Shown here: piece after piece, positions 1-21,748 of the stretch | Numbering within the stretch: the stretch's first letter is position 1 | How the letters are laid out: each line of letters starts with the position of its first letter | Source of the DNA: a virus | Virus record (IMG/VR): IMGVR_UViG_3300037585_003527 | Coordinates: 1-24,177 of that record | Strand: one strand, 5' to 3' | DNA length: 24,177 nt | Notes under the pieces: generated by a model | The model's database searches: none | Seen by the model: the letters and a program-made list of their open reading frames with translations, nothing else | What the model was told of the DNA's origin: nothing | Program-made: the position numbers and the translations under genes

Positions 1-3000
1 CCCCTATAAGCCATTTACTAGAAATACCATACGATATTCAATATGGATCAGGATATAATCAACCGCAGATCCCTCTATTCAATAATAAATTAGATTTCAG
101 TACACTATCTGATATTAGTGGTAGTGATGTCGATGTAATTATATTTGACTCATCTATAGATCCAATGCATAGTGAATTTAAAAACCGTATAGGGGAGAGT
201 AGACTTCAACTTATTGATTGGGAATATTTGTATAATAATCCTAATACAACTTGGGAAGACTTACGTGCACATGATATAACTCTTAGTGAATTAGATGCTT
301 GCATTAAAGATGTATGTAATATTGCAGTTGATAATTTTATTGAAGCTAAAGGTGCTGATGCAACTATTGAAGAGATTGAAGCATTTGATTGGCCTCAGGA
401 AATAGAAACCATCTTATGTGGTACCAAACCTCGTGATTCACATGATCCAGATAATCAATCACAATGGGTTACACCTTGGACTTGGACTGGAAGAAATTAT
501 ACAGCACCATCTGGTAAATCGATGTGGCAACATCCACTGTTTAATAGATTAGGAAACTACTTACTGCATATAGTAACTAGACCTGCAAATTCCTCCACCC
601 ACTATCACGGTACAGCTGCAGCTGCAACTAGTGTAGGATTAGATACAGGGTGGGGATCAGATGCAACAATTTACTTTTTATCACATAATTTTAGGTTAAT
701 TAGTAGTGATGGTAAGATCCGTGATCATTCAGAAGGCGTAGGTCAATACCTACTATCTAAATTTCAAGAACTTAAAAAAGCTTCTAATAACATTAATACA
801 CTTACTGTAATAAATCACTCAGGCGGAAGTTTCAGTGGTGGACTCTTCGCGAATATGCGACATCATAGAATACCTACTCATGAGAAGATTTTTGGTAAAA
901 CAACTTCGAGTGCTGGGTTCTCAGGTTTATTCGGTTACACAGCTGTAACAATAGATGAAAATACGGAATTTTACTTATCACAAGTAAGTCAAAGTATCAT
1001 TGGTTATACACAATCACAACATGCTCATAACACTGGTGATACAACACAATGGCCAATGTTCCACCCCTGGTATACGTATTTTGGTGATATTAATGATAAA
1101 GATAGTATACTTGCCCATAATAAAAAAATAAATAATTTTATAGATCAGTATAAAATAAATAAAAGCGCCACTAATATGAATTTTGGTGTATATGGCGGTG
1201 AAGATGAACAGAATATAAACTTCCCATCAACTCGAGGTGCATATCACCGTATGTGGAGAACACTAGTAAGTGAATCTAACGTGTTAGCAGATTATCCTGG
1301 AGAGGTAGGTTATATAACTGCATCAGCAGAGCAATATCTTTTACTTGAATCTCACTCACATGATCCTAGCTATAATAAAGCACTACCTAGTAGTTACTGG
1401 GAAGATAGAGGTACAAGATTACAGGATGATATCATGTTTTGCAATCATCTCCACATTGCAAAGTGTTTCGTAACAGGTAGTGATGGTAGGACCATCGACA
1501 ATAGAAGTAAGCACTTAGACATAGCTACAGATAATGGTGCTATATACATCCACTCAGCTGGTAATACTCTCTTATCAAACAATGCAAATATAACAGAACA
1601 TGTTACAGAGGTCGGTGAATACCCCAAAGCTAAGTTACATAAGTATAATGATATAGCAGGTGATGGTGTTAATGTATATGATGATTACTATACTATCTTT
1701 AACACAGGATCACGGGTTATAACACCGAAGATAAAATGTAAGATATTTAGATCTGGATTAGATCACCCTGATCAGATAGTTCATCAAAATGAAGGTATTA
1801 TGTTGGATAAGGTCACTACTGCACCATCAGGTGTGTATCAAATTGGATTTTGTGACCCTAGTGATGAAATACTAAACAAGATACCATCAACACCGCAAGG
1901 GCTTATAATATCAAATTCATTATCAAACTATAGCTGCCAATCTGGAAGTATTTATGAGCTACAAGATATAAGCCCAGATAACTTTAAAAGAGTAACAGAT
2001 AGTGATTTAATGATTATGCCAATAGTATTATCAAGTTACGCATCAAGTTCGTGGGACCCTTTAGAAGATAGAAACAACGATCCTACACGACAGCCGTGTT
2101 TCTTAGGTGGTAATGCTAGATTTGACGATATAACTGTTCCATTTGATCCTACTATATATCAAAATTCCTTCTACCCTTCGTACGCTGTACTTGCTAATAA
2201 CCTTACATATGGTGGTACAACATCAACTCAGCGAAAAGTTCCTATAATTTATAAAACTTTTGTTGATAGTATAAATTATCAATTAAAAGGTAATATATCT
2301 CATAGTACAAATGTAGCAGAGTATGTAACTCAAAATTATCATACAGCATCATTAGCGGCTAGTAAAATTAGACGCTTATCTAATAACGAACCAGCATATG
2401 ATTGTTATCGAGGAAAAGGACAACCTAGCAAGACTAGTAGCTTTGAGTATATATATGGCTATCAAAAAAATGATGAGACTTTTACCTCAAGAGTGGATCG
2501 TGGCTTAGTACACCCATATATACTACCAAACGGTGAGTTAGCAAAATCAGAAAGTAATAACTTATCAACATATCTAAGTGATTTCCACCATGCAGGATTT
2601 GACGAGGATATGGCCATACCACGTATTAACCTAGATCCAACAAGTCCAAATAAGCCGCAGTATCTAGCATTATGTGATCCGAGATTACCTAACTCATTGA
2701 GAAGTGATATTGTTGGACTGGTAAGTTCAGCATCTGGTCTTGAGATGCAAGCAGATGGATGGATACCGTATGCTAATTATGTAGCTAGCTCATCAACATG
2801 GGAAAAAATATTTAGAGTGTTAAATGTAGGAAGAGGTGTTGGTCACTTTGGTCCACTTGGAAATGATCAAGCACTTAACTACCCTGTATCGATCACGACT
2901 ACTCATCCATGGGGCACCTCATTTACAGAATTGTCAAGTCTATATAATATTACATTTTCTTACTGTAATCATGATTGGTATGATGGTGGAATGAGAAATG

Positions 3001-6000
3001 GTGGTGCAGTAACTGGATTACATTCTAGTAGTATGATCAATTCAGAATATACTTATACTAGTGAATATGCAGATTCTAATAATGTGAACTATAATGGAAT
3101 GACGCTATCGCAATCAAATTATATATTTGAACAAGAGACAGATGATGAAGGAGCTCTAACAGGTGGTAGAGTTGTGTCTTATATTAATGGTGCTATAGCA
3201 TGGTATTCATGTTCACAAGATAAAGTACCATATACATTAATTGAAAGCGATGGTAAAATTGAGGAGTTTTTAACTGAAGTAAATGGTGAACTTCACTTTT
3301 CTGAGTCATTTGAATATCTCGCTACAACTGCATCCTATCATATGTACAATACTACTCATTATAATACAAATATAGCATGGAATGCACAAACAGAATTTTC
3401 ACAAACTTCAAGTTGGTGGTTAGCACAAACCTTGAATACCTCTGAAATATATTATGATACAACAGAGAGTAGAAAATATTATGATATCCCAATAAATAAT
3501 AACTTAAATACAGGGTTTATTAGCTATGATGTTACCTTCATGACAGCCCCGGTAGACACTATGGCACAATTACCTAATGGATTTTATATTAAATCTGCAA
3601 GCGGTGATCCTGATAGTATGGATTACTATATTAGTGAATCATCAATTACAGTGATAAATACAGATTCTCCGTTTCATGGCCACACATTTTCAGGTTCAGG
3701 AGTAACCGCTTATAATAGAGTGCCGCTACCGAGACATAATATAGATAATTACTTTACATCACCATATAATTTTAAGTCAAGAACATCAACTACAGCTGAT
3801 TATGAAGCTTCGAAGGATTTTGGTTATACGTCATATTCACCAATGTATGTTGCTGGATATTTTTCTTCCGGATCACTAGTATCACAATCTGTTAGTTTTC
3901 CTAAAATAACAGGAAATTTTCTAATGGGCACAGACGGTAGTTTAGGGGGATTTTTAGAAGAACTTGATGCAGTAGATCCTGATTTTATTTTAGAAGAAGT
4001 AAGTAATGTAGGGTCAAGTGCAACTACAGTTACTTTACCTGATGATTATATGATACATTATGCATCACAGTCACAGCAAGAATATGTAGAGGAAGTAATT
4101 GGCAATCGCCAAATTACAAATATAATGAATGATGTAGTTACAACAGATTGGATTACTGTAAATGAGTTAGATTTATACATTAACGGGTATATAACTACAG
4201 GGAGTATAATTCTTGTATCAGAATCTAATCAAAGTACTTTTGAATGGTATACAGGACTATTACCGTACTGTGGCGTTACATCAATAACTGCTGGAACACC
4301 GTATTTTAATAACTGTATTACTGTAGGTGGTGTTGAGCCTAGAGCGATTGCAGATGACCCTACCAGCTTAGCTATAGGCCCAAATCAAACATATTGGATT
4401 GAAGGTGGATTTGAAGGTACTGTAACTGAACCTCAACTATCAATACACACTAGTAGTGGTAAATTTATAGTAAAACATCAGACACATTCTTTTTATAATG
4501 CAGAGTTATTAGAAACATTAGATAATAGTGGTTCAGTGTCTTATACGAGAAAATCTCTCAGAAGAGCTTATGGTAGCAGTAGTGGCCATCCGTTTGGAGG
4601 GTATGTGAATGAACCTGATGGAGGTTATAGATTTAAATACACGCAATCATATAATAACACATCATCAGGTAATTCATATACATCAGGTCCTGTAGGTATT
4701 CCACTTCATAGGCCAAAGAGACATAATTGGGTTAATCAATATTCTCACGGTAGTCACATAAACGTACAGGCATTAGGTGCGATGACTTATGCTGGTACAC
4801 ATGTGGCTTCCATTAATAGTTCCTTTCCATATTATATTTTCACAGAAGAAAAAGATGAACTGAGAAAATATCATGGTTTAACATACACTAATTACCCGCA
4901 GTTGGTAAATCTACAGGATACTGATATAAGTGTTGAAGTGTTACCAACAGGAGATGTTGTATCGAGGTTAGATACCTCTGAAGGATATAATGTGCAGAGG
5001 AAGAGGCATTACCATAAAAGGAATCTACCAGAAACAGATGGTGGGTATAGCTATTATAAGAGTTTTAGCGGTACATCAGCAGCTTCACCGCAAGTGACTG
5101 GTGTTGCATCTTTAATAGGGCAACTTGATCCAACTGCTAACGTAACCACAATGATTAAGTATTTAGATCACTTATCATATAAAACCGCAATAGGATCTTT
5201 ATCAGGTATTGGACCAAATGCACCGGAGCATGATAAGGACTTAGGTGTTAATGATTTTGAAAAATGGTATCATGGAATGTGGTTCTGGGGAGGAGATATG
5301 GAAGGAACAAGCGAAAACATAAGGCAATACAACTACAGTAAAATTAGTGCAGAAAAAGCTGATCAAATTTCACAGGACTATTATCCTAATTATCAATCCG
5401 AAGGCCACAGTAGTACACCAAACACGCGATACTACCGTACAGGAATGCAAGGTGAGGCTAGAGATACGAGTTTAACAACATTCTTGGGTAAAAAGACATC
5501 ACAAGCAGCAGTGGAAGATATAATAGGGTTATGTAATGGTACGTATGGATATACTTGGGATTATATAGTTGAGAATAATGGTATAGTTCCTATGTCATTC
5601 AAGCCAGGCTTTGACCCCGCATCGGACGATCATTACTTTAGATATTTCCCAGGTGGATCTGCTTCTGTCCATTCACCTAGCGTTGAATATATAAATTTCA
5701 CACGGACCTCTATGAATCATACTCCAACATCTTCTGTTAAGAACTGGTATGGTGCATTTCCTGATGATCCATATAATGGTATGGCGTGGAGTGTATTTGA
5801 TAATATTATGTACCCTAAATTTCTCGGTGGTCAATCGAACACTTTTTATGATGAGTTTGCACAGTATATGAAGATTGTAGGTATAAATCCAAAACTAGGT
5901 GTAGATGCAGGTACCTACCCTGACGGTGATAATGGACCCTTTGCAACTGGTATGGGTAGACAGCAATGGTTAGTACCATTACTTACACCAAACACCACAG

Positions 6001-6626
6001 AATCTTACTACGATTCGATCCCGAGCACAACTCGTGGTGTGACAGGACCACACTGGATGAGTGAGATCTTAAGAAGACGATACTTAGGTACTTGGAATAG
6101 ATTAACGTTTACGCAACCGTATATACATTACGATACAACACAAAATGTACTTCACTGGCCATATAGAGAAGTATCGTCATTTGCAACAGACCCTGAATTT
6201 AATTTAACAAATATTGTACCTACTACACCATCTCCTGGATCTTGGCAAAATTCTAATAAAGGATTAGGTAGTAATTTAGAGTTATTAGGTGATATGACAT
6301 TCAAGACAGATGGAATTTCACCTACACCGATTAGTACACCAAGTGTCGTATCAGGAGAAATAACTCCAATAATATCACTCAACAACCTCTATACGGAAGG
6401 ATCAGAATTAAATTTACCAGATGAGACTGATTATATCGGTAGTTACCACATTCACTATACACATGGTGCGATGGTCGGTGCAGAGCATACTACAATACCT
6501 CATAATATGTTAACACCTACAACCACTCAATTCTCTGAAAGTATTGTTAGTATTATGAGTTTATTAGCTGTAGGTGATACATCAGTTGACTCTGGAATGG
6601 GAGACGTATCTAGTGGTGGATACTAG
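1..6626 (+). CDS. Giant virion-associated subtilase-like protein, 5' truncated by the window edge
   Basis: The reading frame is open from position 3 through the ATG at 165 to the TAG at 6624-6626, so the start lies outside the window and Met165 is internal. Subtilisin (S8) landmarks occur in order. The Asp motif VIIFDSSIDPMH has its Asp codon at 147-149. Numbering from Met165, HGTAAAAT has His148, VINHSGG is at 215-221, HSAGN has the oxyanion Asn467, ITVGGVE is at 1385-1391 and GTSAASP has Ser1638. In ordinary subtilisins these lie within about 200 residues; here the loops between them hold insertions of roughly 80 to 900 residues. The inserted sequence is rich in Tyr, Ser, Thr and Asn and I recognise no other domain in it. 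The gene lies just upstream of the neck gene, where T4-like phages often carry large tail or fibre genes. A virion or tail-surface protease is inferred; catalytic activity is plausible because the triad is intact. Confidence 0.75.
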   Translation, partial: PISHLLEIPYDIQYGSGYNQPQIPLFNNKLDFSTLSDISGSDVDVIIFDSSIDPMHSEFKNRIGESRLQLIDWEYLYNNPNTTWEDLRAHDITLSELDACIKDVCNIAVDNFIEAKGADATIEEIEAFDWPQEIETILCGTKPRDSHDPDNQSQWVTPWTWTGRNYTAPSGKSMWQHPLFNRLGNYLLHIVTRPANSSTHYHGTAAAATSVGLDTGWGSDATIYFLSHNFRLISSDGKIRDHSEGVGQYLLSKFQELKKASNNINTLTVINHSGGSFSGGLFANMRHHRIPTHEKIFGKTTSSAGFSGLFGYTAVTIDENTEFYLSQVSQSIIGYTQSQHAHNTGDTTQWPMFHPWYTYFGDINDKDSILAHNKKINNFIDQYKINKSATNMNFGVYGGEDEQNINFPSTRGAYHRMWRTLVSESNVLADYPGEVGYITASAEQYLLLESHSHDPSYNKALPSSYWEDRGTRLQDDIMFCNHLHIAKCFVTGSDGRTIDNRSKHLDIATDNGAIYIHSAGNTLLSNNANITEHVTEVGEYPKAKLHKYNDIAGDGVNVYDDYYTIFNTGSRVITPKIKCKIFRSGLDHPDQIVHQNEGIMLDKVTTAPSGVYQIGFCDPSDEILNKIPSTPQGLIISNSLSNYSCQSGSIYELQDISPDNFKRVTDSDLMIMPIVLSSYASSSWDPLEDRNNDPTRQPCFLGGNARFDDITVPFDPTIYQNSFYPSYAVLANNLTYGGTTSTQRKVPIIYKTFVDSINYQLKGNISHSTNVAEYVTQNYHTASLAASKIRRLSNNEPAYDCYRGKGQPSKTSSFEYIYGYQKNDETFTSRVDRGLVHPYILPNGELAKSESNNLSTYLSDFHHAGFDEDMAIPRINLDPTSPNKPQYLALCDPRLPNSLRSDIVGLVSSASGLEMQADGWIPYANYVASSSTWEKIFRVLNVGRGVGHFGPLGNDQALNYPVSITTTHPWGTSFTELSSLYNITFSYCNHDWYDGGMRNGGAVTGLHSSSMINSEYTYTSEYADSNNVNYNGMTLSQSNYIFEQETDDEGALTGGRVVSYINGAIAWYSCSQDKVPYTLIESDGKIEEFLTEVNGELHFSESFEYLATTASYHMYNTTHYNTNIAWNAQTEFSQTSSWWLAQTLNTSEIYYDTTESRKYYDIPINNNLNTGFISYDVTFMTAPVDTMAQLPNGFYIKSASGDPDSMDYYISESSITVINTDSPFHGHTFSGSGVTAYNRVPLPRHNIDNYFTSPYNFKSRTSTTADYEASKDFGYTSYSPMYVAGYFSSGSLVSQSVSFPKITGNFLMGTDGSLGGFLEELDAVDPDFILEEVSNVGSSATTVTLPDDYMIHYASQSQQEYVEEVIGNRQITNIMNDVVTTDWITVNELDLYINGYITTGSIILVSESNQSTFEWYTGLLPYCGVTSITAGTPYFNNCITVGGVEPRAIADDPTSLAIGPNQTYWIEGGFEGTVTEPQLSIHTSSGKFIVKHQTHSFYNAELLETLDNSGSVSYTRKSLRRAYGSSSGHPFGGYVNEPDGGYRFKYTQSYNNTSSGNSYTSGPVGIPLHRPKRHNWVNQYSHGSHINVQALGAMTYAGTHVASINSSFPYYIFTEEKDELRKYHGLTYTNYPQLVNLQDTDISVEVLPTGDVVSRLDTSEGYNVQRKRHYHKRNLPETDGGYSYYKSFSGTSAASPQVTGVASLIGQLDPTANVTTMIKYLDHLSYKTAIGSLSGIGPNAPEHDKDLGVNDFEKWYHGMWFWGGDMEGTSENIRQYNYSKISAEKADQISQDYYPNYQSEGHSSTPNTRYYRTGMQGEARDTSLTTFLGKKTSQAAVEDIIGLCNGTYGYTWDYIVENNGIVPMSFKPGFDPASDDHYFRYFPGGSASVHSPSVEYINFTRTSMNHTPTSSVKNWYGAFPDDPYNGMAWSVFDNIMYPKFLGGQSNTFYDEFAQYMKIVGINPKLGVDAGTYPDGDNGPFATGMGRQQWLVPLLTPNTTESYYDSIPSTTRGVTGPHWMSEILRRRYLGTWNRLTFTQPYIHYDTTQNVLHWPYREVSSFATDPEFNLTNIVPTTPSPGSWQNSNKGLGSNLELLGDMTFKTDGISPTPISTPSVVSGEITPIISLNNLYTEGSELNLPDETDYIGSYHIHYTHGAMVGAEHTTIPHNMLTPTTTQFSESIVSIMSLLAVGDTSVDSGMGDVSSGGY

Positions 6627-6656
6627 TAGATATACAGTGTTAAACTAGATGATCTT

Positions 6657-6675
6657 ATATTTATAATATATAACT
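6657..6675 (+). promoter_or_regulatory. Candidate late promoter element (ATATTTATAATATATAACT)
   Basis: This 19-nt AT-rich element lies in the 63-nt gap before the neck gene and is repeated perfectly at 15001-15019. It contains TATTTATA and TATAAT and ends 14 nt before the ATG. No -35 box is convincing, which would fit a T4-type late promoter, but the T4 consensus TATAAATA is the reverse complement of TATTTATA, so function is inferred only from its recurrence upstream of genes. Confidence 0.45.
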
Positions 6676-6689
6676 AGCTAGGAGACAAC

Positions 6690-7850
6690 ATGGCAACATC
6701 TTCATATTTCGATAATAGTGAATTATTCACAAACGCTCCCCAAGAGGTGCCATTCGGCACTTATGGGATAGAAACATCATTTCAAAATGACTGTAATAAT
6801 GCTACATTATGGTGCGCTAGACGATTGGGGTATCCAATGGTTGATATTGAATTGCAAACTATGCAATTTTGGGCTTGCTTTGAAGAAGCAACATTAGAAT
6901 ATACAGCGCAAGTTAATAGATTTAATATACGTGAAAATTTACTATTAGCTAAAGGTGCAAGTACAGGTTCAAATTTATCACATAGAAATTTAACACCTAA
7001 TCTCGGACGTCAAATAGCTATTAGTAAGCAATATGGAACTGAAGCCGGTGTCGGTGGAGATGTGCCGCTATATTCTGCATCGCTATCTATAACAGCAGGG
7101 CAGCAAACATATAATTTAACAGATAGTGATATTGTGACTTTTGAATCAGGTACTCCAAATAATGATGTATTTGAAGTACGTAGAGTATTCTATGAATCAT
7201 CACCTGCTATGACAAGATTCTTTGATCCACATATTGGATCAGGATTAGGATCCCAGCAAATGCTATCAACTATGGGATGGGGTAGTTATTCACCTGCAAT
7301 AAATTATCTCATGATGCCATTATATGATGATCTATTAAGAGTGCAAGCTATTGAATTTAATGATTTAGTACGTAAATCAGCGTATAGTTTCGAATTAGTA
7401 AATAATCAATTAACTATATTCCCACAACCAGAGGGAGCATCAACGTTGTGGTTCCACTACTTAAAAACAGAAGATAGAAATAATCTATTAATAGAATCTG
7501 TAGGAACTGTATCTGACTATTCAAATATTAATTACTCAAATACTTTGTATGCGGATATAAATGATCCCGGAAAGCAATGGATTAGAAAATATACATTAGC
7601 TTTATGTAAAGAATTATTAGGTACTGTTAGAGGTAAATACCCTTCAATACCTACTCCAGGCGGAGAAACATCACTAGATGGTGATACACTACGTTCTGAA
7701 GGAGCAGCAGAGAGAGATGTATTAATAGAGCAATTACGAGAAGATTTAGAGCAATCATCAAGACGAAATATGATGGAGCGTAATAGTGAAGAAGCACAAT
7801 TTCAACAAGATACAATTAACAAAATACCACTTAATATTTATATAGGATAA
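6690..7850 (+). CDS. 13: Neck / head-completion protein, gp13-like
   Basis: A 386-aa protein at the head-tail joining position. The N-terminal region (residues about 10-75) has the pattern I associate with gp13-type neck proteins of marine T4-like phages: a short YFDNSELF start, then PMVDIELQTMQFWACFEEA, a helical segment in which a Cys-Phe-Glu-Glu core precedes YTAQVNRFNIRENLL. The middle is beta-rich and the last 60 residues are charged and probably helical. T4 gp13 is 309 aa, so this form is longer. The start is supported by AGGAG at 6680-6684, five bases before the ATG. The next two genes look like gp14 and gp15, which reproduces the 13-14-15 order of T4 and supports the call. gp13 and gp14 complete the head and form the collar to which the tail attaches. 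Confidence 0.7.
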   Translation: MATSSYFDNSELFTNAPQEVPFGTYGIETSFQNDCNNATLWCARRLGYPMVDIELQTMQFWACFEEATLEYTAQVNRFNIRENLLLAKGASTGSNLSHRNLTPNLGRQIAISKQYGTEAGVGGDVPLYSASLSITAGQQTYNLTDSDIVTFESGTPNNDVFEVRRVFYESSPAMTRFFDPHIGSGLGSQQMLSTMGWGSYSPAINYLMMPLYDDLLRVQAIEFNDLVRKSAYSFELVNNQLTIFPQPEGASTLWFHYLKTEDRNNLLIESVGTVSDYSNINYSNTLYADINDPGKQWIRKYTLALCKELLGTVRGKYPSIPTPGGETSLDGDTLRSEGAAERDVLIEQLREDLEQSSRRNMMERNSEEAQFQQDTINKIPLNIYIG

Positions 7851-7851
7851 T

Positions 7852-8358
7852 ATGCCACTGTTTAACTCAAAAAATGATGCAGCGTTTATTAATAAAATCA
7901 ACTATGAATTGATAGGTGATATTATTGAGCAGAATGTTCATATATATAAACTCGATGTTAATGTAACAGAAGATAATTTGTATGGAGAGGGAGCAACAGA
8001 TAAGTCATATAGAAGTTGTGTTCGAGTACCGTGCTTAATAACTAAAGAAGATGAAGAATGGGGAGATTCAGAATTTGGAACTGATATTAATCAGAGTGCA
8101 ACATTTGCTTTCTTAAAAGATATGTTAATTGATAGAGCTAATATAGTTATAGAAATCGGTGATATTATTGAGCATGATAATGCATTCTGGGAAGTAGATA
8201 GTACTGTAGAGAATCAATATTGGGGAGGTAGAAGACCTGCAGATCCTAATCTTACAGGAGGAGCAAGTATATCTATAGTAGCTTCTGCTCACTTAACTCG
8301 TCGCTCAAGATTATCAATAGAAAATACACAAGGTCCTACATCTAATAAGGTATTATAA
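7852..8358 (+). CDS. 14: Neck protein, gp14-like
   Basis: A 168-aa protein starting one base after the upstream stop codon, with a weak GGA at 7845-7847 as ribosome binding site. It has a Tyr- and Glu-rich N-terminus including LYGEGATDKSYRS and an acidic EDEEWGDSEFG stretch. A later IEIGDIIEHDNAFWEVDS segment fits gp14-type neck proteins, which have a GD-I-hydrophobic strand followed by an E-V strand near their C-terminus. T4 gp14 is 256 aa, so this is a short version. The main support is its place between gp13-like and gp15-like genes; the sequence match alone is modest. Its inferred role is to form the connector ring between the portal/gp13 and the tail terminator gp15. The stop codon overlaps the next ATG (TAATG at 8356-8360), suggesting coupled translation. 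Confidence 0.55.
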   Translation: MPLFNSKNDAAFINKINYELIGDIIEQNVHIYKLDVNVTEDNLYGEGATDKSYRSCVRVPCLITKEDEEWGDSEFGTDINQSATFAFLKDMLIDRANIVIEIGDIIEHDNAFWEVDSTVENQYWGGRRPADPNLTGGASISIVASAHLTRRSRLSIENTQGPTSNKVL

Positions 8359-9404
8359 TGGCGCAGAATAAACCACATAGAGGAACAGTTAGTCGAGAGA
8401 ATCACATTAGGCGTGATACGGATACATCGCAAGATGTGTCGTTAGGGTTAATGGAATTAGATGAAACCATTAAGTATTATTTTGAAAACGTAGCGCAATT
8501 ACAGGTAGTTGATAGTAATAATAGACAGCAAAAAGTACCAGTAATATATGGATCACCAGAGCGATGGAAGAGTGTTCAGAAATCGAATTTCTATAGAGAT
8601 ACGAAAGGTAAAATTCAGTTACCGATAGTGATGTTTAGACGTACTAGTATAGCAAAAAATCGAGAATTAGGTATGAAAGTTGATGTAAATAATCCATTAT
8701 ATCACTTTATAGAAAATAAATATTCAAAAGAGAGTAGGTATGATAAATTTGATGTACTACAAGGTAGACGTAAAGCTAGAGAATTTCAAAGAGTAGTAGT
8801 ACCCGATCATATAACAGCTACATATGAATGTATAGTGTGGACTGAATATATAACTCAAATGAATAAAATTGTCGAAGCTGTAAGTTATGCGGAAGGATCA
8901 TATTGGGGAGATCAAAACAAATATCTTGTAAAAGCTAAGATTGATGATTTTTCATCAGCAACAGAATTAGCATCAGGTGAAGATCGAGCTGTTAAATCAG
9001 AATTCACTATAACTATAAATGGTCATATAATACCTAATACTGTACAAAAGCAGATACAGCAAGGTAGTACTAAAACATTCAGCCCTGCTCAAGTTATATT
9101 TTCAGAGGGAATAGTAGGTGATACTACACCTACAGCTACATCTGGTAATGAGTGGGATGATGGTAGTGTAGATCAACCGTTGACGTTAACAGAGAATACT
9201 ACATTCCATATGGATACAGTAGCAGCAGCAGAAATAATTGTACCGCAAGGTATAGAGTTGCACATTGTAGGTATATTAACAGTTAATGTTACAATACAAA
9301 ATTATGGCTTCATCTCTATGACTGAAGCATTTATTGAAGATGGTGGTACAATTGAAAACAAAACTAACCCAGACGGTTCATCTGGACAATATGAAGTGGG
9401 ATAA
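8358..9404 (+). CDS. 15: Tail sheath stabiliser / tail completion protein, gp15-like, with C-terminal extension
   Basis: A 348-aa protein. Residues about 25-235 follow the T4 gp15 pattern: a helix ETIKYYFENV, then a strand VPVIYGSPERWKS (T4 has VPITYASKEHF), PIVMFRR, a YECIVWTEYITQMNKIVEAV helix equivalent to the T4 YELSIFTRYEDDMFQIVEQI, and a final ITINGHIIPN strand. gp15 forms the hexamer capping the last tail ring and joins the tail to the neck. T4 gp15 is 272 aa; residues from about 240 onward here are an added beta-strand-rich tail containing TLTENTTFHM and IQNYGFISM, reminiscent of a short beta-helix or surface decoration. The start overlaps the upstream stop in TAATG, with AAGG at 8347-8350. 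The next gene, only 12 nt away, is also beta-helix-like. Confidence 0.75.
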   Translation: MAQNKPHRGTVSRENHIRRDTDTSQDVSLGLMELDETIKYYFENVAQLQVVDSNNRQQKVPVIYGSPERWKSVQKSNFYRDTKGKIQLPIVMFRRTSIAKNRELGMKVDVNNPLYHFIENKYSKESRYDKFDVLQGRRKAREFQRVVVPDHITATYECIVWTEYITQMNKIVEAVSYAEGSYWGDQNKYLVKAKIDDFSSATELASGEDRAVKSEFTITINGHIIPNTVQKQIQQGSTKTFSPAQVIFSEGIVGDTTPTATSGNEWDDGSVDQPLTLTENTTFHMDTVAAAEIIVPQGIELHIVGILTVNVTIQNYGFISMTEAFIEDGGTIENKTNPDGSSGQYEVG

Positions 9405-9416
9405 TAAGGTAATACT

Positions 9417-11123
9417 ATGGCAATTAAAATAACCGGTGATGAAATAAGATTTACAAGTGCTAGTGGTGAGATAACTACATATAAGCAAGAAGATGCAAAA
9501 GAAGTTTTTGTAAAAAGGAAATCTGATGATGGATTACCTATGAAGCGTCTGCGATCTTTTGAAAGTGCATCGACATTTATCGATCTTAATGCATCAGGTA
9601 TAACTCCTTCAGGTCACTCAGCCCCTAGACCTGGAATGATTAAAGGGGATACTATTGATATTTTTGTAAAAGATACTTATGAAGCACTTCATATAGATTC
9701 ACACCTAATATCTATAGGACCTAAATCAAACACTCGTTTAGAATTAACAGGTTCTTTATTTAGTAATGGAATATCAGGTTCATTTGATTATAGTAATGTT
9801 AGTTGGATGCAACTTGAAAATATGGCAATGGATATAACTCAAGGAGGATTTTTTGGATTAGCAGTTTCAGGTTCTACATTAGCATCTAACTTATATAATA
9901 TGGCTAATAATCTATCCGGATTCTTTTTAACTGGTAGCAATGTAATTATATCAGGTTCAACAGAATTATCAGGTTCTACAATAATTACAGGTGGTGATAC
10001 ACAAATAACTGGAAGTCTTATCCAATCAGGTTCAACTACATTAACAGGTGGTGATGTAATTATATCCGGTTCTACAGAATTATCAGGTTCAACAATAATT
10101 ACTGGAGGTGATACTGAAATTACAGGATCAACAATTATATCAGGTTCAACAATAATTACTGGAGGTGATACGCAGATAACTGGGTCAACAATTATATCAG
10201 GTTCAACAACTATTACAGGAGGCGATACACAGATAACAGGTTCAACTGTAATCTCTGGTTCAACAATTATTACTGGTGGTGATACTGAAATAACTGGTTC
10301 AACAATTATATCTGGTTCAACAATTATTACGGGTGGTGATACACAAATAACAGGATCAACAATATTATCCGGTTCTACAGTAATCACCGGAGGAGATACT
10401 GAAATAACAGGGTCGACAACTATATCAGGTTCTACAGTAATCACCGGAGGAGATACTGAAATAACAGGGTCGACAACTATATCAGGTTCAACTACAGTTA
10501 TTATATCAGAATTCACTCAATCAGGTACTTCAATATTTGATGGTGGAACAACAACATTTACAGGTATATCAGGTTCATTATCAGCTTCGTTATCTGGATC
10601 AGATATAGCTGTAGAAGTATCAGGTACTATATCAGTGGATGGAGACGTAGCAGTAAATTATACTAATAATGCTCCAATATCATCATCATTAACATTAACA
10701 AATGGAGCCCATGGGTTAGGTAGAACACTAAATGTTAGAAGTGGTTCTAGTCCTTATATACCTTCTGGTCCATATAGCGGATTACCTGTAACTACAGGTG
10801 TATATAACGCAAATCCTGCAGGAGAATTAGAATTAACATTACCTGCCGCTACAATTGGGTTATCATTCCATGTTAGAAATTGCGGAGTTAATACATTCCC
10901 ATATGTCCAGTCTGGTTATCAAGGACCGCCATCAATAAAAATTTCTCCATCAGGAAGTAATAAATTTATATATGGAGCAGGTGGTAGTACCGGCGTAGCT
11001 GGAAAAGCAATAATAAATCATTCATCTTCATTTCAAATGGGAGATTTTGCAGTTGTAAGCTGTGTTTCACAATCTCATTGGATGATTCAACAAATGGGTG
11101 GAACATGGACAGATGAAGCATAA
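9417..11123 (+). CDS. Repeat-containing beta-helix-like virion protein (fibre or decoration)
   Basis: A 568-aa protein in three parts. Residues 1 to about 170 are a mixed N-terminal region starting AIKITGDEIRFTSASGE. Residues about 174-362 are nine tandem 19-residue units of the type ITGSTIISGSTIITGGDTQ, each with a GGD turn spaced exactly 19 residues apart from Gly192 to Gly344. The remaining ~200 residues form a C-terminal region with LELTLPAATIGLSFHVRNCG and an ending HWMIQQMGGTWTDEA. The regular Ile/Val, Ser/Thr and Gly pattern suggests one beta-helix coil per unit, as in phage fibres. The last part resembles C-terminal domains I have seen on phage virion proteins. AAGG at 9406-9409 supports the start. 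It sits between gp15 and gp18, where T4 has the terminase genes, so it is probably a late structural or fibre protein. Exact role is unknown. Confidence 0.65.
   Translation: MAIKITGDEIRFTSASGEITTYKQEDAKEVFVKRKSDDGLPMKRLRSFESASTFIDLNASGITPSGHSAPRPGMIKGDTIDIFVKDTYEALHIDSHLISIGPKSNTRLELTGSLFSNGISGSFDYSNVSWMQLENMAMDITQGGFFGLAVSGSTLASNLYNMANNLSGFFLTGSNVIISGSTELSGSTIITGGDTQITGSLIQSGSTTLTGGDVIISGSTELSGSTIITGGDTEITGSTIISGSTIITGGDTQITGSTIISGSTTITGGDTQITGSTVISGSTIITGGDTEITGSTIISGSTIITGGDTQITGSTILSGSTVITGGDTEITGSTTISGSTVITGGDTEITGSTTISGSTTVIISEFTQSGTSIFDGGTTTFTGISGSLSASLSGSDIAVEVSGTISVDGDVAVNYTNNAPISSSLTLTNGAHGLGRTLNVRSGSSPYIPSGPYSGLPVTTGVYNANPAGELELTLPAATIGLSFHVRNCGVNTFPYVQSGYQGPPSIKISPSGSNKFIYGAGGSTGVAGKAIINHSSSFQMGDFAVVSCVSQSHWMIQQMGGTWTDEA
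9936..10489 (+). repeat. Tandem 57-nt coding repeats, nine units
   Basis: In-frame tandem array inside the fibre-like gene. The GGD (GGT/GGA first codon) landmark occurs at 9990, 10047, 10104, 10161, 10218, 10275, 10332, 10389 and 10446, strictly every 57 nt. Most units differ at synonymous or conservative positions, so the array is old. However, 10371-10432 and 10428-10489 are identical over 62 nt, which indicates one very recent duplication of a unit. It is not a CRISPR array: there are no unique spacers and the reading frame is maintained. Confidence 0.95.
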
Positions 11124-11211: not shown

Positions 11212-13329
11212 ATGGCTGAAAAAATTATAAGTCCTGGCGTCTTTACGCGTGAAAATGACTTATCATTCTTACCACAAGGTGTTGGTGAGATTGGTGCAGC
11301 AATTGTAGGTCCAACAGTAAAAGGACCAGTAGGTATACCAACACAAGTTACATCATACGCACAATATGTTGATATATTTGGAAACACATTCAAAAGTGGA
11401 AGTGATTACTTCCAATACTTAACTTCACATACAGCAGAACATTATCTTAAAGACGGTGGCCCATTAACTGTAGTTAGAATAGCAGGAGATGAGTATAGTC
11501 ATGCATCCAGTTCAGTATCAACAGGTGAGATAGCTAGTGATGGTACCATAATGACTGGATCTTTAGTGTATGATAATAGTGCATTTCAAGATGAAGGTGA
11601 TGAAGTACAAATTACTGTAGGTGGTGTAGAATATAGAATTATTGGAGCTGCAGCGGAAGATGATAATTTCCCAGCAGATGATTCACCTATATTCTTTGCT
11701 TCGACAGGTTCAACCCCTACATTAGCAATATCTTCTTTAGCAGCGAAAATTAATGCAATAGATATTGGTGTATCTGCGTTAGCCGTCGGTGCAACAAATT
11801 TAGAATTAACTGCATCTGCAGCTGGTAATCAAGTAATAACTGTTCAGACAGGTTCTGGTGGTACAATAGAAACAAATGCATTGACATTAGGTGGTGGTAT
11901 TAATGCCTCAGCATCGGTAGCATTCAATATAAGAACAATATCAGATGGTGATAATCTGAATAATTATCAAGAATCGGAAGGTATTAACCATGTATTAGAA
12001 AGTGGATCGAAAGATAATATTAGATGGGAAGTTACTAATGTAGATACTAAAGTAGGTACATTTAACTTAGTTGTTAGACGTGGGAATGACAGTAGTGTCG
12101 CTAAAATACCTCTTGAAACATGGAGCAACTTATCATTAGATCCAAACGCAAGTAATTATATCAGTAAAGTTATAGGTGATATGGTATACACTGTACGTGG
12201 ATCAGATGATGATCCTTACTTACAATTATCAGGATCATATTCTAATAAATCAAGATATATACGAGTTGAAGTATTAAAGCAAACTGTTGATTATCTAGAT
12301 GAAAATGGTGATGTTAGAATAGCAGCAGCATCACAATCACTACCTGTAAGTGGTACATCAGGATCATTTAATGGTGGAGCTGATGGTAATAAACTTGCTG
12401 CAGCGAAATTCTACGAAAATATTTCTGCAGCTAACTGTCAAGGATATGACTTAAATGATATTGGAAATAGTAACGGTGGTACATCATATGCTAAGGCATT
12501 AAATTTACTTGCAAATCAAGATGAATATGATATTAACATGCTATTAGTACCAGGTGCTAATCAAGCAATGCACGGTCCAGTTATAGATAAAGCAATTAAG
12601 GTTGCAGAATCTAGAGGAGACTGTTTTGTAGTTGCTGATCCTGTTGGATATGGCGCTGGGTCTATGGTATCAGTAACAGAGGAAGCAGCTAAATATAACT
12701 CAAGTTACGCAGCAATGTATTGGCCATGGGTTCAGGTACCTGATAATCAATTAAATAAATTAGCATGGGTTCCAGCAGGAGTTGTATTACCAGGAGTACT
12801 TGCATTTAATGATAGAATCGCTCATGAATGGTATGCACCTGCAGGATTAAATAGAGGTGGAGTTGATGTAGCAGTTAGAGCTGAGCGTAAATTAACTCAT
12901 ACAAATAGAGACGCATTATATGCAGGTCGTGTTAATCCACTAGCAACATTCCCAGGACAAGGAGTTGTTGTATGGGGTCAAAAGACTTTACAGAAAAAAG
13001 CTTCAGCATTAGATCGAGTTAATGTACGAAGATTATTAATTAACCTTAAAAAATTCATTGCATCTACTAGTAAGTATCTTGTATTCGAAAACAATACAAA
13101 TGAAACTAGAAATAGATTCTTATCAACTGTTGTTCCATATATGGAGAGAGTACAACAAAACAACGGATTATATGCATTTAAAGTTGTAATGGATGATTCA
13201 AACAATACACCTGACATCATCGATAGAAATATCATGAAGGGAGATATATTTATTCAACCAGCGAAAGCTGCTGAATTTATTGTAGTCGACTTTAATGTTA
13301 TGCCAACTGGTGCAACTTTTGGTGAATAA
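11212..13329 (+). CDS. 18: Contractile tail sheath protein, gp18
   Basis: A 705-aa sheath subunit (T4 gp18 is 659 aa). The N-terminus ISPGVFTRENDLSFLP and the following GAAIVGPTVKGPVGIPTQV stretch are typical of myovirus sheath proteins, as is the DYFQYLTSHTAEHYLKDGG segment leading into VVRIAG. Residues about 100-245 are Ala/Gly/Thr-rich and match the place of the protruding domain of T4 gp18. The C-terminal half contains the conserved core: AMYWPWVQVPD, the PAGVVLPGVLAFNDR region, GVVVWGQKTL, NVRRLLINLKKFI and a final DGDI-like KGDIFIQPAKAAEFIVVDFN strand arrangement ending GATFGE. The strong site AGGAG at 11200-11204 supports the start. The protein polymerises around the tube and contracts to drive it through the envelope. 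The tube gene follows after 29 nt. Confidence 0.95.
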   Translation: MAEKIISPGVFTRENDLSFLPQGVGEIGAAIVGPTVKGPVGIPTQVTSYAQYVDIFGNTFKSGSDYFQYLTSHTAEHYLKDGGPLTVVRIAGDEYSHASSSVSTGEIASDGTIMTGSLVYDNSAFQDEGDEVQITVGGVEYRIIGAAAEDDNFPADDSPIFFASTGSTPTLAISSLAAKINAIDIGVSALAVGATNLELTASAAGNQVITVQTGSGGTIETNALTLGGGINASASVAFNIRTISDGDNLNNYQESEGINHVLESGSKDNIRWEVTNVDTKVGTFNLVVRRGNDSSVAKIPLETWSNLSLDPNASNYISKVIGDMVYTVRGSDDDPYLQLSGSYSNKSRYIRVEVLKQTVDYLDENGDVRIAAASQSLPVSGTSGSFNGGADGNKLAAAKFYENISAANCQGYDLNDIGNSNGGTSYAKALNLLANQDEYDINMLLVPGANQAMHGPVIDKAIKVAESRGDCFVVADPVGYGAGSMVSVTEEAAKYNSSYAAMYWPWVQVPDNQLNKLAWVPAGVVLPGVLAFNDRIAHEWYAPAGLNRGGVDVAVRAERKLTHTNRDALYAGRVNPLATFPGQGVVVWGQKTLQKKASALDRVNVRRLLINLKKFIASTSKYLVFENNTNETRNRFLSTVVPYMERVQQNNGLYAFKVVMDDSNNTPDIIDRNIMKGDIFIQPAKAAEFIVVDFNVMPTGATFGE

Positions 13330-13331
13330 GA

Positions 13332-13339
13332 TATTTATT
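13332..13339 (+). promoter_or_regulatory. Candidate late promoter element upstream of tube gene
   Basis: ATATTTAT (13331-13338) followed by TATAAAG lies in the 29-nt sheath-tube gap. It is a variant (TATTTATT) of the motif seen in the other gaps and is immediately followed by the AGGAG site at 13347-13351. Confidence 0.3.
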
Positions 13340-13358
13340 ATAAAGTAGGAGATATATA

Positions 13359-13847
13359 ATGGCAGAGACTATTAGCGCACAACAATTAATGTTCAACTCA
13401 TTTACACCGAAAGTATCAAATCGGTTTGTGATGTCAGTTGGAGATATACCATCATTCATCTGTAAAAAGGTGTCACGTCCTGGAATAACATTCGGTGAGG
13501 TTGTAATTGATCATATTAATACAAAGCGTAAATTGCAAGGTAAAGCAGATTGGAATGATATAACTGTAACGTTATGGGATCCAATTGTACCATCAGGTGC
13601 ACAGCATGTAATGGAGTGGGTTCGTAAAGGATATGAATCAGCGACAGGAGCAGCTGGATATGCAGATTTCTATAAAGAAGATGTTACTATTGAAGTTCTA
13701 GGACCTCAAGGTGATATTAGAGAAAGATGGGTTATTAAAGGAGCATTTCCATTAACAACAGAGATGGGTGAATTAGATTGGTCTAATGATCAACCAGTAG
13801 AAATAACACTTACTTTAAAATATGATTATGCAGTATTAGAATTCTAA
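13359..13847 (+). CDS. 19: Tail tube protein, gp19
   Basis: A 162-aa protein, almost exactly the length of T4 gp19 (163 aa). It has the recognisable gp19 order: NRFVMSVGDIPSFICKKVSRPGI near residues 20-45, then DHINTKRKLQGKADWNDITVTLWDP, the VMEWVRKGYESATG helix, YKEDVTIEVLGPQG, and a C-terminal WSNDQPVEITLTLKYDYAVL strand. The protein stacks as hexameric rings to form the inner tube around the tape measure and is the channel for DNA. AGGAG at 13347-13351 supports the start. It lies 29 nt after the sheath gene, the normal sheath-tube pair, and is followed by a strong intrinsic terminator. The very high expected expression of the sheath-tube pair fits that terminator. No anomaly is seen. Confidence 0.95.
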   Translation: MAETISAQQLMFNSFTPKVSNRFVMSVGDIPSFICKKVSRPGITFGEVVIDHINTKRKLQGKADWNDITVTLWDPIVPSGAQHVMEWVRKGYESATGAAGYADFYKEDVTIEVLGPQGDIRERWVIKGAFPLTTEMGELDWSNDQPVEITLTLKYDYAVLEF

Positions 13848-18310: not shown

Positions 18311-21300
18311 ATGTCTAGTTTTAGAGGAATAGTATTAGATTCAATTCACCCTAATATTAAAACTGCATTAGATAAAGAAACTGCAGGGTTTACTCGTGAA
18401 GATGGACGATCATATCAACATATTACATCACGAACTCCATGGATGAGATCCGTGCCATTTACTGTCCCTGTAAATCCAGATGAAATGGAGATACCAGTAC
18501 CTAGATGGCAAGAATGGGTTTTATATTCACAGAAAGGTACAGATAGAAATGATCCCAAGAAAGTTACGCAATTTGGTAGAGCAGGTGTAGCAGGAGATAG
18601 CACTGGGCTATATCGTAGTAATCTTAGAAATACACCAATACCGGGTATTACAAGTATTCGAGTTAGTAATAAAGGTGATTTAGGTACATTACGTCGAGCA
18701 ACATTAGCTATCAAATGTTATCATGAAGCAGACTTACATGAATTAGAGATGATGTATATGGTCCCTGGTGTTAGTATCCTATTAGAATGGGGATGGTATT
18801 CAGAGGTAAAAAGTCAGCAACCGATATTTTTAGGTGATTTAGAAGACAATGGTAGATTAAATAATATAACCAAAATTCAAGAAGAGTTATTAAAGAAAAC
18901 TTTAGATATTGATAGTTTATTAGTTCAGCATAATCATGAAGGATCATTAGAAACTAGTGCTGGTTTATATGATGGATTAATAGGAGTTGTTACAAAATTT
19001 AATTGGTCTAATGCATCTGATGGATCATATGATATACAGATTGATATAATTGCTCCGAATAGCTTAACATTAGGTGTACCTACAGAGACTTATAAGTTAG
19101 GTGGTAATATAATAGATCCAGAAGATGGTAAATCAACACCAGTTACAGATGTTGATGTAATATATTATAAAATAAATACAAAATCTTCTCGAATTGAGGG
19201 AGATGCATCCAAGCAAGCTGTACAGCAAAATGAGAATATATCGCGAAATGCTGTATCGACAATAGATGAATTCTCTGATTCATTGATGTTTGAAGAAGCT
19301 TCTATGTTAAGTTTAGAAACTTCTGCTCTAAAAAATAGTTTTGGATTCGTTGAGTTTTATGAAGAAGATGGCGAACTTAAAGCAAAAATAGTACAAGACG
19401 ATCCAGAACAAGCACTTTCAGAAGTTGAGCATGAAGAGCCTGTATATGAATACACTGAGGAAAGCTGGTTATTCGGAACATCTACTACAATGGAAGTTAC
19501 TGCAGAATTCGCAGCGAATAATGAAGACGCTGTTAAAACAGATAGAACGGTGAAGGATGGAACTAGAGATTTAGTAATTAAAGATAAGGATGGTAAAGAA
19601 ATATACGCTGGAAATTATCTATCAGGAGTGGTTAAAAATGATTTATCAAATTTAATTGAGCAAGCCATTGCAGCTCATTCTAGAGAATTAAGTGCAAAAG
19701 TAGATCAGCAGCAAGAATCAGAAATAGAATTTGCAAGCCAAATAGAGTATGCAACTCAAGATGATGTAAATTATTTATCATGGAAAAGAGTTATATTTGA
19801 GCAAGGTTATGATCAAAAATCAGTTCCTATAATGACTTGTGACGAAGGAATAGGGACTACTATTCCACGAGCTCGTGAAATATCATTTATGGCAGAGAAT
19901 AATGAGATGGGAATATCTGCATATAGTGAAACATATGTGAGTTGGAGATTTATAGAAGAGTACATTATCAATGAACTATTCATGCCGCGTATGGAAGATA
20001 ATACTCTAGCAATTAAATTTATGAGTATGCATCCAATACCAGTAGTACCTGAAGAAGATCAAGAAGTTACAGAAGAAGATGTTTTATACGAGAGTGTAAA
20101 AATAATTAATAATCCATGGATTAGATCATTAGATCCTAGAGTGTGTATACTGCCAGGGCAAGAATATGATGCATCATTAATTACACGACTACCTGGATCA
20201 GATCCGACATTTGAAATGAAAAATCACTTCTATGTTGATACATCAGCGACGGAAGGGTACCTACGTAATATACTAATTAATATAAATATAGTTAGAGAAG
20301 CTGCAGAAGATTCAGAAAGCGTTAATGATTTTGCAATGGAGATTTTATCACAAGTATCAGAAGCATGTGGAAACCCTTGGTCATTTAAAGTAATTACAAA
20401 TACAGCATTACAGCAAGTTATGATTATCGATGAAAATCATAAAGGGAATCATAAAGGATATAAGGAAGCAGCAGATCAAAGGTCAAATGTAGCATATAGA
20501 TTCTCAGGTATTGGGACAAATAATATATGTAAAGATGTTAAAATTCAAACAAAGTTACCGAGTGAAATTCAAACCATGGCTTACTATGCAGCAAGTGGAG
20601 CAGGGTCATCTACTGGAGCTGATCTTAATATGTTTAAATTATATGGAGCAGGATTACGTGATAGAATGAAACCTAATTTCCAAGCTAATGAAACAACTGC
20701 TAAAGAGAAGGAAGCTAAAGAGAAGAATGAGCGAGATAATACATATAAAAGATATTGGGAGTTAGTAAAAAAGACTCGTACAGATACTTTACATGGATTA
20801 GAAAAAAGTAAAGCGTATAAACAAGGAACAAAAATTGCTACCAACTTTGCGAAGATATTTATATTAGATGCATCCGATAATAATCCATCATATGGACCAC
20901 CTATCCCGATAGATATATCTCTAACATTAAATGGTATATCTGGAATATATATGGGTAATGCAATTATGCTAGATACTGTTGATGATGGTGGAATGCTACC
21001 AAGTAGATATAAGAATATTGTAGCACTACAAACTACAGCTGTAGATCAAGATGTATCAGCAGATGGATGGACTACAAATATAAGTACACTAATGCGACCA
21101 ATGAAAACATTAGAAGCAGTTGAAGTTAAATTACGAGAGCCTGCAATGTCTATACCAAATTATGTAACGAAAGTTGAAACGGTAGATGATAAAGAGAATG
21201 CATTACCGGTAGTTGAAGAGTTTGCACAACATCTAACACATACGGGAGTTCCATATGTTCACGGTACACCACAACCATCTCAGGAATTCTATAAAATTAG

Positions 21301-21748
21301 AGGTAGTCAGTCAAATGGATTATTTGCAACTCAAAATGATGATGAAGAGTATTTTGCAGCATTAATATTCCCGTCATGGATTGCACTAACTAGAGAAGCT
21401 AAATCAGCTGGTATTAAGCTACAAGTAAATGATTCTTGGAGATCATTTGAGAAACAAGATTACTTATATCAAGGTCGACAAGATTATAAAGCACGTGGAG
21501 AGACGCCACCAGTATTCCATCCAGCAGATCAAGCAGGGTGGTCAAAACATCAATCAGGTATCGGAATAGACGTAAATTCATATCCAGAAGATCATTATAA
21601 ATGGATGGTAAATCACGCTCATAGATTTGGATTTAGACGAAATGTGCAAGGTGAAGCATGGCACTGGGTGTATCAACCAAATGAGGGTATTTATTCAAAA
21701 GTTCCAAAAGATCATGAATCTTGGAGAGGACAGGAGGCAATTGTATAA
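18311..21748 (+). CDS. Baseplate hub protein fused to an M15 (VanY-type) peptidoglycan peptidase
   Basis: A 1145-aa protein. Residues about 90-265 contain NTPIPGITSIRVSNKGDLG, LRRATLAIKCYHEADLHELE and MYMVPGVSILLEWGW, a pattern I recall from gp27-type hub proteins of marine T4-like phages. Residues about 290-490 are a charged, Glu/Asp-rich insertion. A second conserved core runs to about 960 and includes SEACGNPWSFKV. The C-terminal ~130 residues are an M15 D-Ala-D-Ala carboxypeptidase/endopeptidase-like domain: SWRSFEKQDYLY, SKHQSGIGIDVN with His1080 and Asp1087, and GEAWHWVY with Glu1115 and His1118, so all zinc ligands and the catalytic Glu are present. T4 uses a gp5 lysozyme at this place; a peptide-cutting enzyme here would serve the same penetration step. 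GAGG at 18301-18304 supports the start. The stop overlaps the next ATG (TAATG). Confidence 0.8.
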   Translation: MSSFRGIVLDSIHPNIKTALDKETAGFTREDGRSYQHITSRTPWMRSVPFTVPVNPDEMEIPVPRWQEWVLYSQKGTDRNDPKKVTQFGRAGVAGDSTGLYRSNLRNTPIPGITSIRVSNKGDLGTLRRATLAIKCYHEADLHELEMMYMVPGVSILLEWGWYSEVKSQQPIFLGDLEDNGRLNNITKIQEELLKKTLDIDSLLVQHNHEGSLETSAGLYDGLIGVVTKFNWSNASDGSYDIQIDIIAPNSLTLGVPTETYKLGGNIIDPEDGKSTPVTDVDVIYYKINTKSSRIEGDASKQAVQQNENISRNAVSTIDEFSDSLMFEEASMLSLETSALKNSFGFVEFYEEDGELKAKIVQDDPEQALSEVEHEEPVYEYTEESWLFGTSTTMEVTAEFAANNEDAVKTDRTVKDGTRDLVIKDKDGKEIYAGNYLSGVVKNDLSNLIEQAIAAHSRELSAKVDQQQESEIEFASQIEYATQDDVNYLSWKRVIFEQGYDQKSVPIMTCDEGIGTTIPRAREISFMAENNEMGISAYSETYVSWRFIEEYIINELFMPRMEDNTLAIKFMSMHPIPVVPEEDQEVTEEDVLYESVKIINNPWIRSLDPRVCILPGQEYDASLITRLPGSDPTFEMKNHFYVDTSATEGYLRNILININIVREAAEDSESVNDFAMEILSQVSEACGNPWSFKVITNTALQQVMIIDENHKGNHKGYKEAADQRSNVAYRFSGIGTNNICKDVKIQTKLPSEIQTMAYYAASGAGSSTGADLNMFKLYGAGLRDRMKPNFQANETTAKEKEAKEKNERDNTYKRYWELVKKTRTDTLHGLEKSKAYKQGTKIATNFAKIFILDASDNNPSYGPPIPIDISLTLNGISGIYMGNAIMLDTVDDGGMLPSRYKNIVALQTTAVDQDVSADGWTTNISTLMRPMKTLEAVEVKLREPAMSIPNYVTKVETVDDKENALPVVEEFAQHLTHTGVPYVHGTPQPSQEFYKIRGSQSNGLFATQNDDEEYFAALIFPSWIALTREAKSAGIKLQVNDSWRSFEKQDYLYQGRQDYKARGETPPVFHPADQAGWSKHQSGIGIDVNSYPEDHYKWMVNHAHRFGFRRNVQGEAWHWVYQPNEGIYSKVPKDHESWRGQEAIV

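Follow-up and report, generated by a model that had tools for sequence, protein, structure and literature searches.

A subtilisin-type protease with greatly expanded loops next to the neck gene of a T4-like phage

We analyzed a 24,177-base virus fragment from IMG/VR (record IMGVR_UViG_3300037585_003527; hereafter the window), at the beginning of which lies a giant open reading frame (ORF) for a subtilisin-type (S8) protease with its catalytic blocks set far apart by insertions. The giant ORF is followed by a neck gene and three more genes, and then by the sheath, tube and baseplate genes, an order that therefore identifies the tail module of a T4-like phage. A previous interpretation made from the letters alone (the sequence-only reading) had ended the protease gene at position 5100 (1-5100), but it runs to 6626; the neighboring neck genes of that reading are borne out by the phrog_211 head-tail adaptor that follows. 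As the first in-frame ATG does not occur before position 165, the start is either upstream of the contig or a non-ATG codon. The ORF has no in-frame stop and a phage-like codon composition throughout (G+C content at third codon positions of 0.15-0.29 in 15 of 15 segments), while 7 to 31 stops per 450 nt interrupt the other two frames.

That this ORF codes for an S8 protease is virtually certain. The seven subtilase landmarks noted in the sequence-only reading all lie in one frame, in the correct order and at the positions it had given (Table 1). Pfam PF00082 detects the Ser block only (amino acids (aa) 1674-1717, E 9.6e-6, 25.5 bits versus a curated cut-off of 21.8). A phage S8 profile, built from 62 ordinary phage S8 proteases from IMG/VR and two cyanophage records (mostly of 550-570 aa), recovers three collinear blocks with 49.7 bits for the whole protein (E 1.1e-14), whereas the highest score among 450 shuffled proteins is 7.5 bits; this upholds the notion of a subtilisin-type protease pulled apart by insertions. 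These blocks correspond to the Asp (aa 36-76, independent E 1.8e-6), the His-to-SGG (aa 196-279, independent E 0.18, weak taken alone) and the Ser (aa 1684-1740, independent E 5.3e-6) regions. Further, the giant proteins of two related contigs span the window's Asp and His together in BLAST: L090 with 31.6% over aa 21-225 (E 3e-20) and L088 with 27% over aa 39-275 (E 2e-12).

The phage S8 profile missed the GN and ITVGG blocks of the window, and MAFFT did not align its GN with the family GN; we assign them because of motif, order and the presence of the same motifs in relatives, the GN motif of the window recurring in L088, L090, L012 and L092. By chance, loose GN and ITVGG patterns occur at rates of 0.03 and 0.01 per shuffled protein, respectively (2000 shuffles, with regular expressions written after reading the sequence). 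All 47 ordinary relatives have the catalytic Asp, as do the three giant relatives that reach the block. Among the giants that reach each block, window included, Asp is kept in 4/4, His in 5/5, GN in 6/6 and Ser in 6/6. No close homologue of the window ORF was found in IMG/VR using its first 1999 aa or among 50,697 phage records at E 1e-3, and its protein has no PHROG match at E 0.01. A PDB sequence search gave only chance ribosomal S12 rows, and the 84 pattern matches from a host-genome scan with the 270 N-terminal aa include no relative.

Table 1. Features of the giant ORF and its neighborhood in the window
Feature	Position	Strand	Basis or remark
Giant subtilase ORF	3..6626	+	2207 aa visible; 5′ end cut by contig; stop at 6624-6626
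DVDVIIFD, catalytic Asp49 at 147-149	126..149	+	profile, BLAST, family alignment
Insert 1, Asp-His loop (+121)	231..590 (approximate limits)	+	landmark spacing
HGTAAA, catalytic His202 at 606-608	606..623	+	profile, BLAST, family alignment
VINHSGG, S1-wall strand (SxG block)	807..827	+	profile, family alignment, motif test
Insert 2, SxG-Asn loop (+218)	840..1535 (approximate limits)	+	landmark spacing
GAIYIHSAGN, G520-N521 at 1560-1565, oxyanion Asn521 at 1563-1565	1536..1565	+	motif and order
Insert 3, Asn to ITVGG (+898)	1578..4310 (approximate limits)	+	landmark spacing
CITVGGVE strand (ITVGGVE at 4317-4337)	4314..4337	+	motif
Insert 4 (+125)	4341..4754 (approximate limits)	+	landmark spacing
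INVQALGA, APG block	4758..4781	+	motif in relatives, spacing
Insert 5 (+82)	4779..5054 (approximate limits)	+	landmark spacing
GTSAASP, catalytic Ser1692 at 5076-5078	5070..5090	+	Pfam, profile, alignment, motif test
C-terminal extension, 467 aa	5223..6623	+	position after Ser block
Neck gene, head-tail adaptor Ad2-like (synteny anchor)	6690..7850	+	phrog_211, E 1.2e-10
Tail sheath and tail tube genes	11212..13847	+	PF04984, PF06841

Measured against the landmark spacing of subtilisin BPN′, as known generally, the window protein carries +121 (Asp-His), +10 (His-SxG), +218 (SxG-Asn), +898 (Asn-VG), +125 (VG-APG) and +82 (APG-Ser) residues, summing to +1454, and the insert sizes estimated in the sequence-only reading agree with these values; its C-terminus is 461 residues longer than that of BPN′. 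In the same landmark order, the corresponding figures are +111, +3, +324, +100, +147 and +66 for L088; +102, +3, +313, +108, +140 and +68 for L091; +85, +6, +151, +694, +45 and +96 for L090; and +20, +9, +50, +21, +2 and +19 (Asp-Ser total +121) for the compact protein of cyanophage S-H38. The Asp-Ser segment of the giants is thereby 734 to 1454 residues longer than in subtilisin, with lengths differing between them: five common loops expand, and the His-to-SxG stretch stays near ordinary (+3 to +10). Of 35 phage S8 rows, 32 have a His-Ser distance of 238-268 and the rest 378, 787 and 795, the last two being the giants L091 and L088; in the window it reaches 1490. A direct view of the insertions is offered by L088, 858 residues of which match 332 residues of the Sf-FR1 protease. 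Part of insert 1 (QLxDWxYL ... RAxDxT) is common to the window, L088, L090 and L091.

To see the core in three dimensions we turned to the L088 giant (1193 aa), a relative of the window protein, which was modeled with AlphaFold from a 53-row alignment. The predicted local distance difference test (pLDDT) values are about 75-92 for the core blocks and below 50 for most of the inserts (mean 46.9). The core superposes on proteinase-K-like enzymes with a VIA Z of about 24 over 234-242 residues (root-mean-square deviation 2.9-3.2), the superposed pieces being scattered over about 1035 residues of the model (34-1071). Together with the conservation of the core residues in the homologues, this supports, for the family, the S8-like site envisaged in the sequence-only reading. 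The best Foldseek match of the model is a subtilisin-like protease (E 3e-4), and the best row listed in a BFVD search is a 1251-aa 'extracellular serine proteinase' of Agrobacterium phage Atu_ph07 (E 2e-3); the accessible passages of PMC6102473 name Clp proteases and not this one.

The giant gene has a characteristic position. Among relatives whose neck genes share at least 75% identity, five of the five contigs reaching upstream (L088, L090, L091, L012 and L092) have a giant S8 ORF directly upstream, and the other three (L089, L126 and L011) begin in or at the neck gene. The giant ORFs of these five uncultured phages encode 1191-1703 aa, two of them being cut by the contig end, and a Pfam S8 search was positive in all five records versus none of seven chosen outgroup records. 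A tree built from 98 distinct neck proteins unites the window with the five other S8 rows and one cut row in a single clade (support 100/100); PhoH lies upstream of the neck gene in seven of the nine members of its sister group. Across the tree the gene just upstream is PhoH in 34 rows, 38 are left unassigned by the motif test and 20 are cut. The simplest reading is one gain of the giant S8 gene in this clade. Whole-protein identity among the giants falls to 15-23%. A search for further giants with the Asp-His alignment returned eight loci, namely three known giants and five others of 565-721 aa. In two relatives the interval between PhoH and the S8 gene holds large genes with collagen repeats and tail-fiber PHROG matches. 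In a relative, a 2762-aa gene with 25 collagen-repeat stretches (L166, 774-9062) stands between PhoH and the subtilase pair.

Seen in a wider context, cyanophages commonly encode compact S8 relatives of about 550 aa, with matches to the S-H38 protein in 43 records, and in the opened records the genes lie beside 'baseplate wedge subunit and tail pin' or between tail fiber and tail spike genes. These compact forms (S-H38, 550 aa; Sf-FR1, 570 aa; P-SSM2_297, 611 aa, 'contains PF00082') share with the giants a virion-gene neighborhood and a common core, the signatures of which are GWA-x-x-AN-x-Y after HGT, NPxIxNNSxG, RVDxxAPG and GTSMAxPQV. They differ in their near-ordinary Asp-Ser length, in having the pro-region and NWGLxR in the same chain, and in lying beside baseplate or fiber genes, whereas the giants sit between PhoH and neck. 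Other phage proteins approach the window's in single respects. The P-HM2 GC519 product (1827 aa, L260 5233-10716), matched by the phage S8 profile and without a Pfam match at E 0.01, is also a large S8-type protein immediately upstream of neck gp13; however, its S8 blocks are compact (Asp277 to Ser555) and its bulk is a C-terminal extension. In S-TIM54, the 2140-aa 'virion structural protein' UYE97265.1 (L259 4030-10452) has an S8 domain, a whole BD-FAE/COesterase esterase-like domain inserted between the pro-region and the catalytic part, and an Ig-like tail, but it is one chain with an only moderately expanded catalytic part. Two tandem S8 paralogues of L176 (839 and 903 aa; 5431-7947 and 7964-10672) carry a roughly 300-aa insert between SWG and GN, a loop also expanded in the giants, with their other loops ordinary and the pro-region in the same chain; in the first of them GSSMAAA replaces GTSMASP at the Ser block. 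PHROG 3677 (protease, 1125 positions) and PHROG 9158 (696 positions) match the L088 giant (E 3.9e-13 and 8.7e-28), while the window protein matches neither.

Among cellular subtilases, tripeptidyl peptidase II and lactocepin/C5a peptidase (with a PA domain) have insertions between catalytic blocks, but these are typically one or two of about 150-200 aa, as against five in the window, including one of about 900 aa. In S-SCSM1 an S8 protein with a lectin-like tail is labeled '(virion protein)' in the record; the corresponding paper reports 45 virion proteins by mass spectrometry, of which this may be one (PMC9602691). The nearest literature mention, in the available text of PMC3037559, is the S8 peptidase T4-GC518 named in P-HM1/P-HM2. 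A literature search with most subscription journals outside its reach turned up no publication about phage subtilases that are split or have expanded loops, and term searches within PMC12796325, PMC9964418 and PMC10665884 gave nothing on such a protease. The giant is an extreme new variant of a known, if little-noticed, protease family of marine T4-like phages.

The sequence-only reading had the protease core of a single protein scaffold all the insertions. The core landmarks do lie in one ORF; that picture may, however, be incomplete, as the N-terminal segment of the enzyme seems, in relatives, to be encoded by the gene preceding the giant (gene A, the giant S8 ORF being gene B). Ordinary phage S8 proteases have an N-terminal region and the NWGLxR segment ahead of the Asp block in the same chain. 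In L088, L091 and L090 the giant ORF instead begins about 40 residues before Asp, with its own ribosome-binding site, just past the stop of gene A, and the gene B model (L088) aligns only from residue 26-31 of solved proteinase-K-like proteases. Gene A (726, 717 and 1152 aa from the first Met in L088, L091 and L090) has WGLxR-type segments (NWGFTR, NWGITR or SWGLWR), which are missing from gene B in all three relatives with a complete gene A. Among 1686 ORFs without the Ser motif, the WGLxR pattern, written after gene A had been seen, has seven matches: five gene A copies or parts and two S8 N-termini. The weak points of a split are a profile comparison (hhalign) probability of 28%, the low rank of gene A with a pro-region profile that does not single it out, and pLDDT values below 50 for its N-terminus in AlphaFold. 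The Pfam I9 propeptide has no match in gene A, but none in 4/4 ordinary members either. Because L088 and L091 are close kin, the arrangement amounts to at most two independent observations; a search for further gene A copies returned only two of the three known contigs. In the window no WGLxR occurs in the 48 residues visible before Asp, where the 5′ end is cut.

Gene A also has sequence in common with some inserts. In L090, gene A and the insert of the catalytic gene have a homologous stretch, 200 aa long in the insert (31.5%, E 2e-13). A profile of 130 positions detects the module in the genes A as well as in the L090 and L012 inserts, but the window inserts lack it (best E 31). The inserts might be exchangeable recognition modules. 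The gene A model has a pLDDT of about 60-85 over much of aa 343-720, though its modules find no confident PDB fold (best VIA Z 5.3). The genes A (L088 4151-6328, L091 1623-3773, L090 1935-5390) display YGCTDPxAxNYDPxAxxDDGSC repeats and a repeated GWNxIS...WWPEFxFNGIG...PGQGYQ module. We tentatively raise the possibility, which we hold to be on the doubtful side, that the subtilisin of this clade is split over two genes, with an adhesin-like gene A supplying the pro-region and N-terminal segment and the giant supplying the catalytic core, loop modules being drawn from the same stock and activity arising only when the chains meet on the virion.

Farther downstream, the window codes for a 1145-aa protein of the tail/baseplate region, the C-terminal domain of which resembles VanY D-Ala-D-Ala carboxypeptidase (18311-21748), and, directly after the structural genes, for a 425-aa ORF with a DNA polymerase family A match (22246-23523).

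Taking these observations together, we propose, with a probability of about 0.55, that the giant is a virion-attached protease that cuts a host-surface protein and uses its inserts for recognition. In this view the T4-like phage makes an S8 protease capable of catalysis, one of a family that marine T4-like phages keep beside baseplate, fiber or neck genes. Its core of about 240 residues would be intact, separate domains having taken the place of five surface loops and a long tail having been appended at the C-terminus. As a part of the virion, or attached to it, at the level of neck or fibers, it might recognize a host-surface protein through the inserted domains and cut that protein during adsorption. 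In relatives, the upstream gene apparently supplies the segment before the Asp block. This proposal draws on the core as established by homology and the relative's model, the conserved catalytic residues, the clade-specific position and the collagen/tail-fiber cassette in two relatives. Several points weigh against it: protease activity, virion location, substrate and adhesion by the inserts are steps that we infer; the window inserts have no match in Pfam, PHROG, NCBIfam or PDB, which makes adhesion by them a guess; the APG block of the window has Leu in place of Pro; the visible sequence of the window, cut at its 5′ end, shows no propeptide; and the Foldseek TM-scores of the L088 model are low, because most of it is unfolded.

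A possible but distinctly less probable alternative is an assembly or maturation protease that acts inside infected cells or on the virion as it forms; it would trim itself or the adjacent collagen-like fibers with no need for contact with the host surface. Subtilases commonly process themselves and neighboring chains, and in two relatives the giant S8 gene is the last gene of the fiber cassette; yet the compact cyanophage relatives adjoin varied genes (baseplate, tail pin, tail spike) with no fixed fiber partner, and in Mel-JY01, a relative in the same broad group, the usual prohead protease is located elsewhere. In the window the inserts are about six times as large as the core, as would befit a dead subtilisin core serving as a rigid frame that displays inserted domains without proteolysis. 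Such a scaffold should have lost the catalytic residues in some lineage, but Asp, His, Asn and Ser persist in every giant reaching the respective block despite the low identity noted above, making this the least likely functional account, and an improbable one. Finally, the very large spacing between motifs, and a superficially intein-like Cys following Asn-Asn where insert 3 ends (FNNC, aa 1435-1438), could evoke introns, inteins or a chimeric contig. We reject these explanations: the frame is open with an even codon composition across all inserts, there is no Rfam match and no intein model in Pfam or NCBIfam, the start of insert 3 is without Cys, and independent contigs expand the same loops at other lengths.

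If true, the two-gene arrangement would be a subtilisin split by nature, on which one could examine to what extent the N-terminal segment and the propeptide need to share a chain with the rest of the enzyme. More generally, the giant presents a classic enzyme fold stretched far, with a core of about 240 residues staying together over a span of about 1,650, and points to phage-borne proteases as a neglected class with compact forms in many cultured cyanophages and a potential to cleave host-surface proteins.

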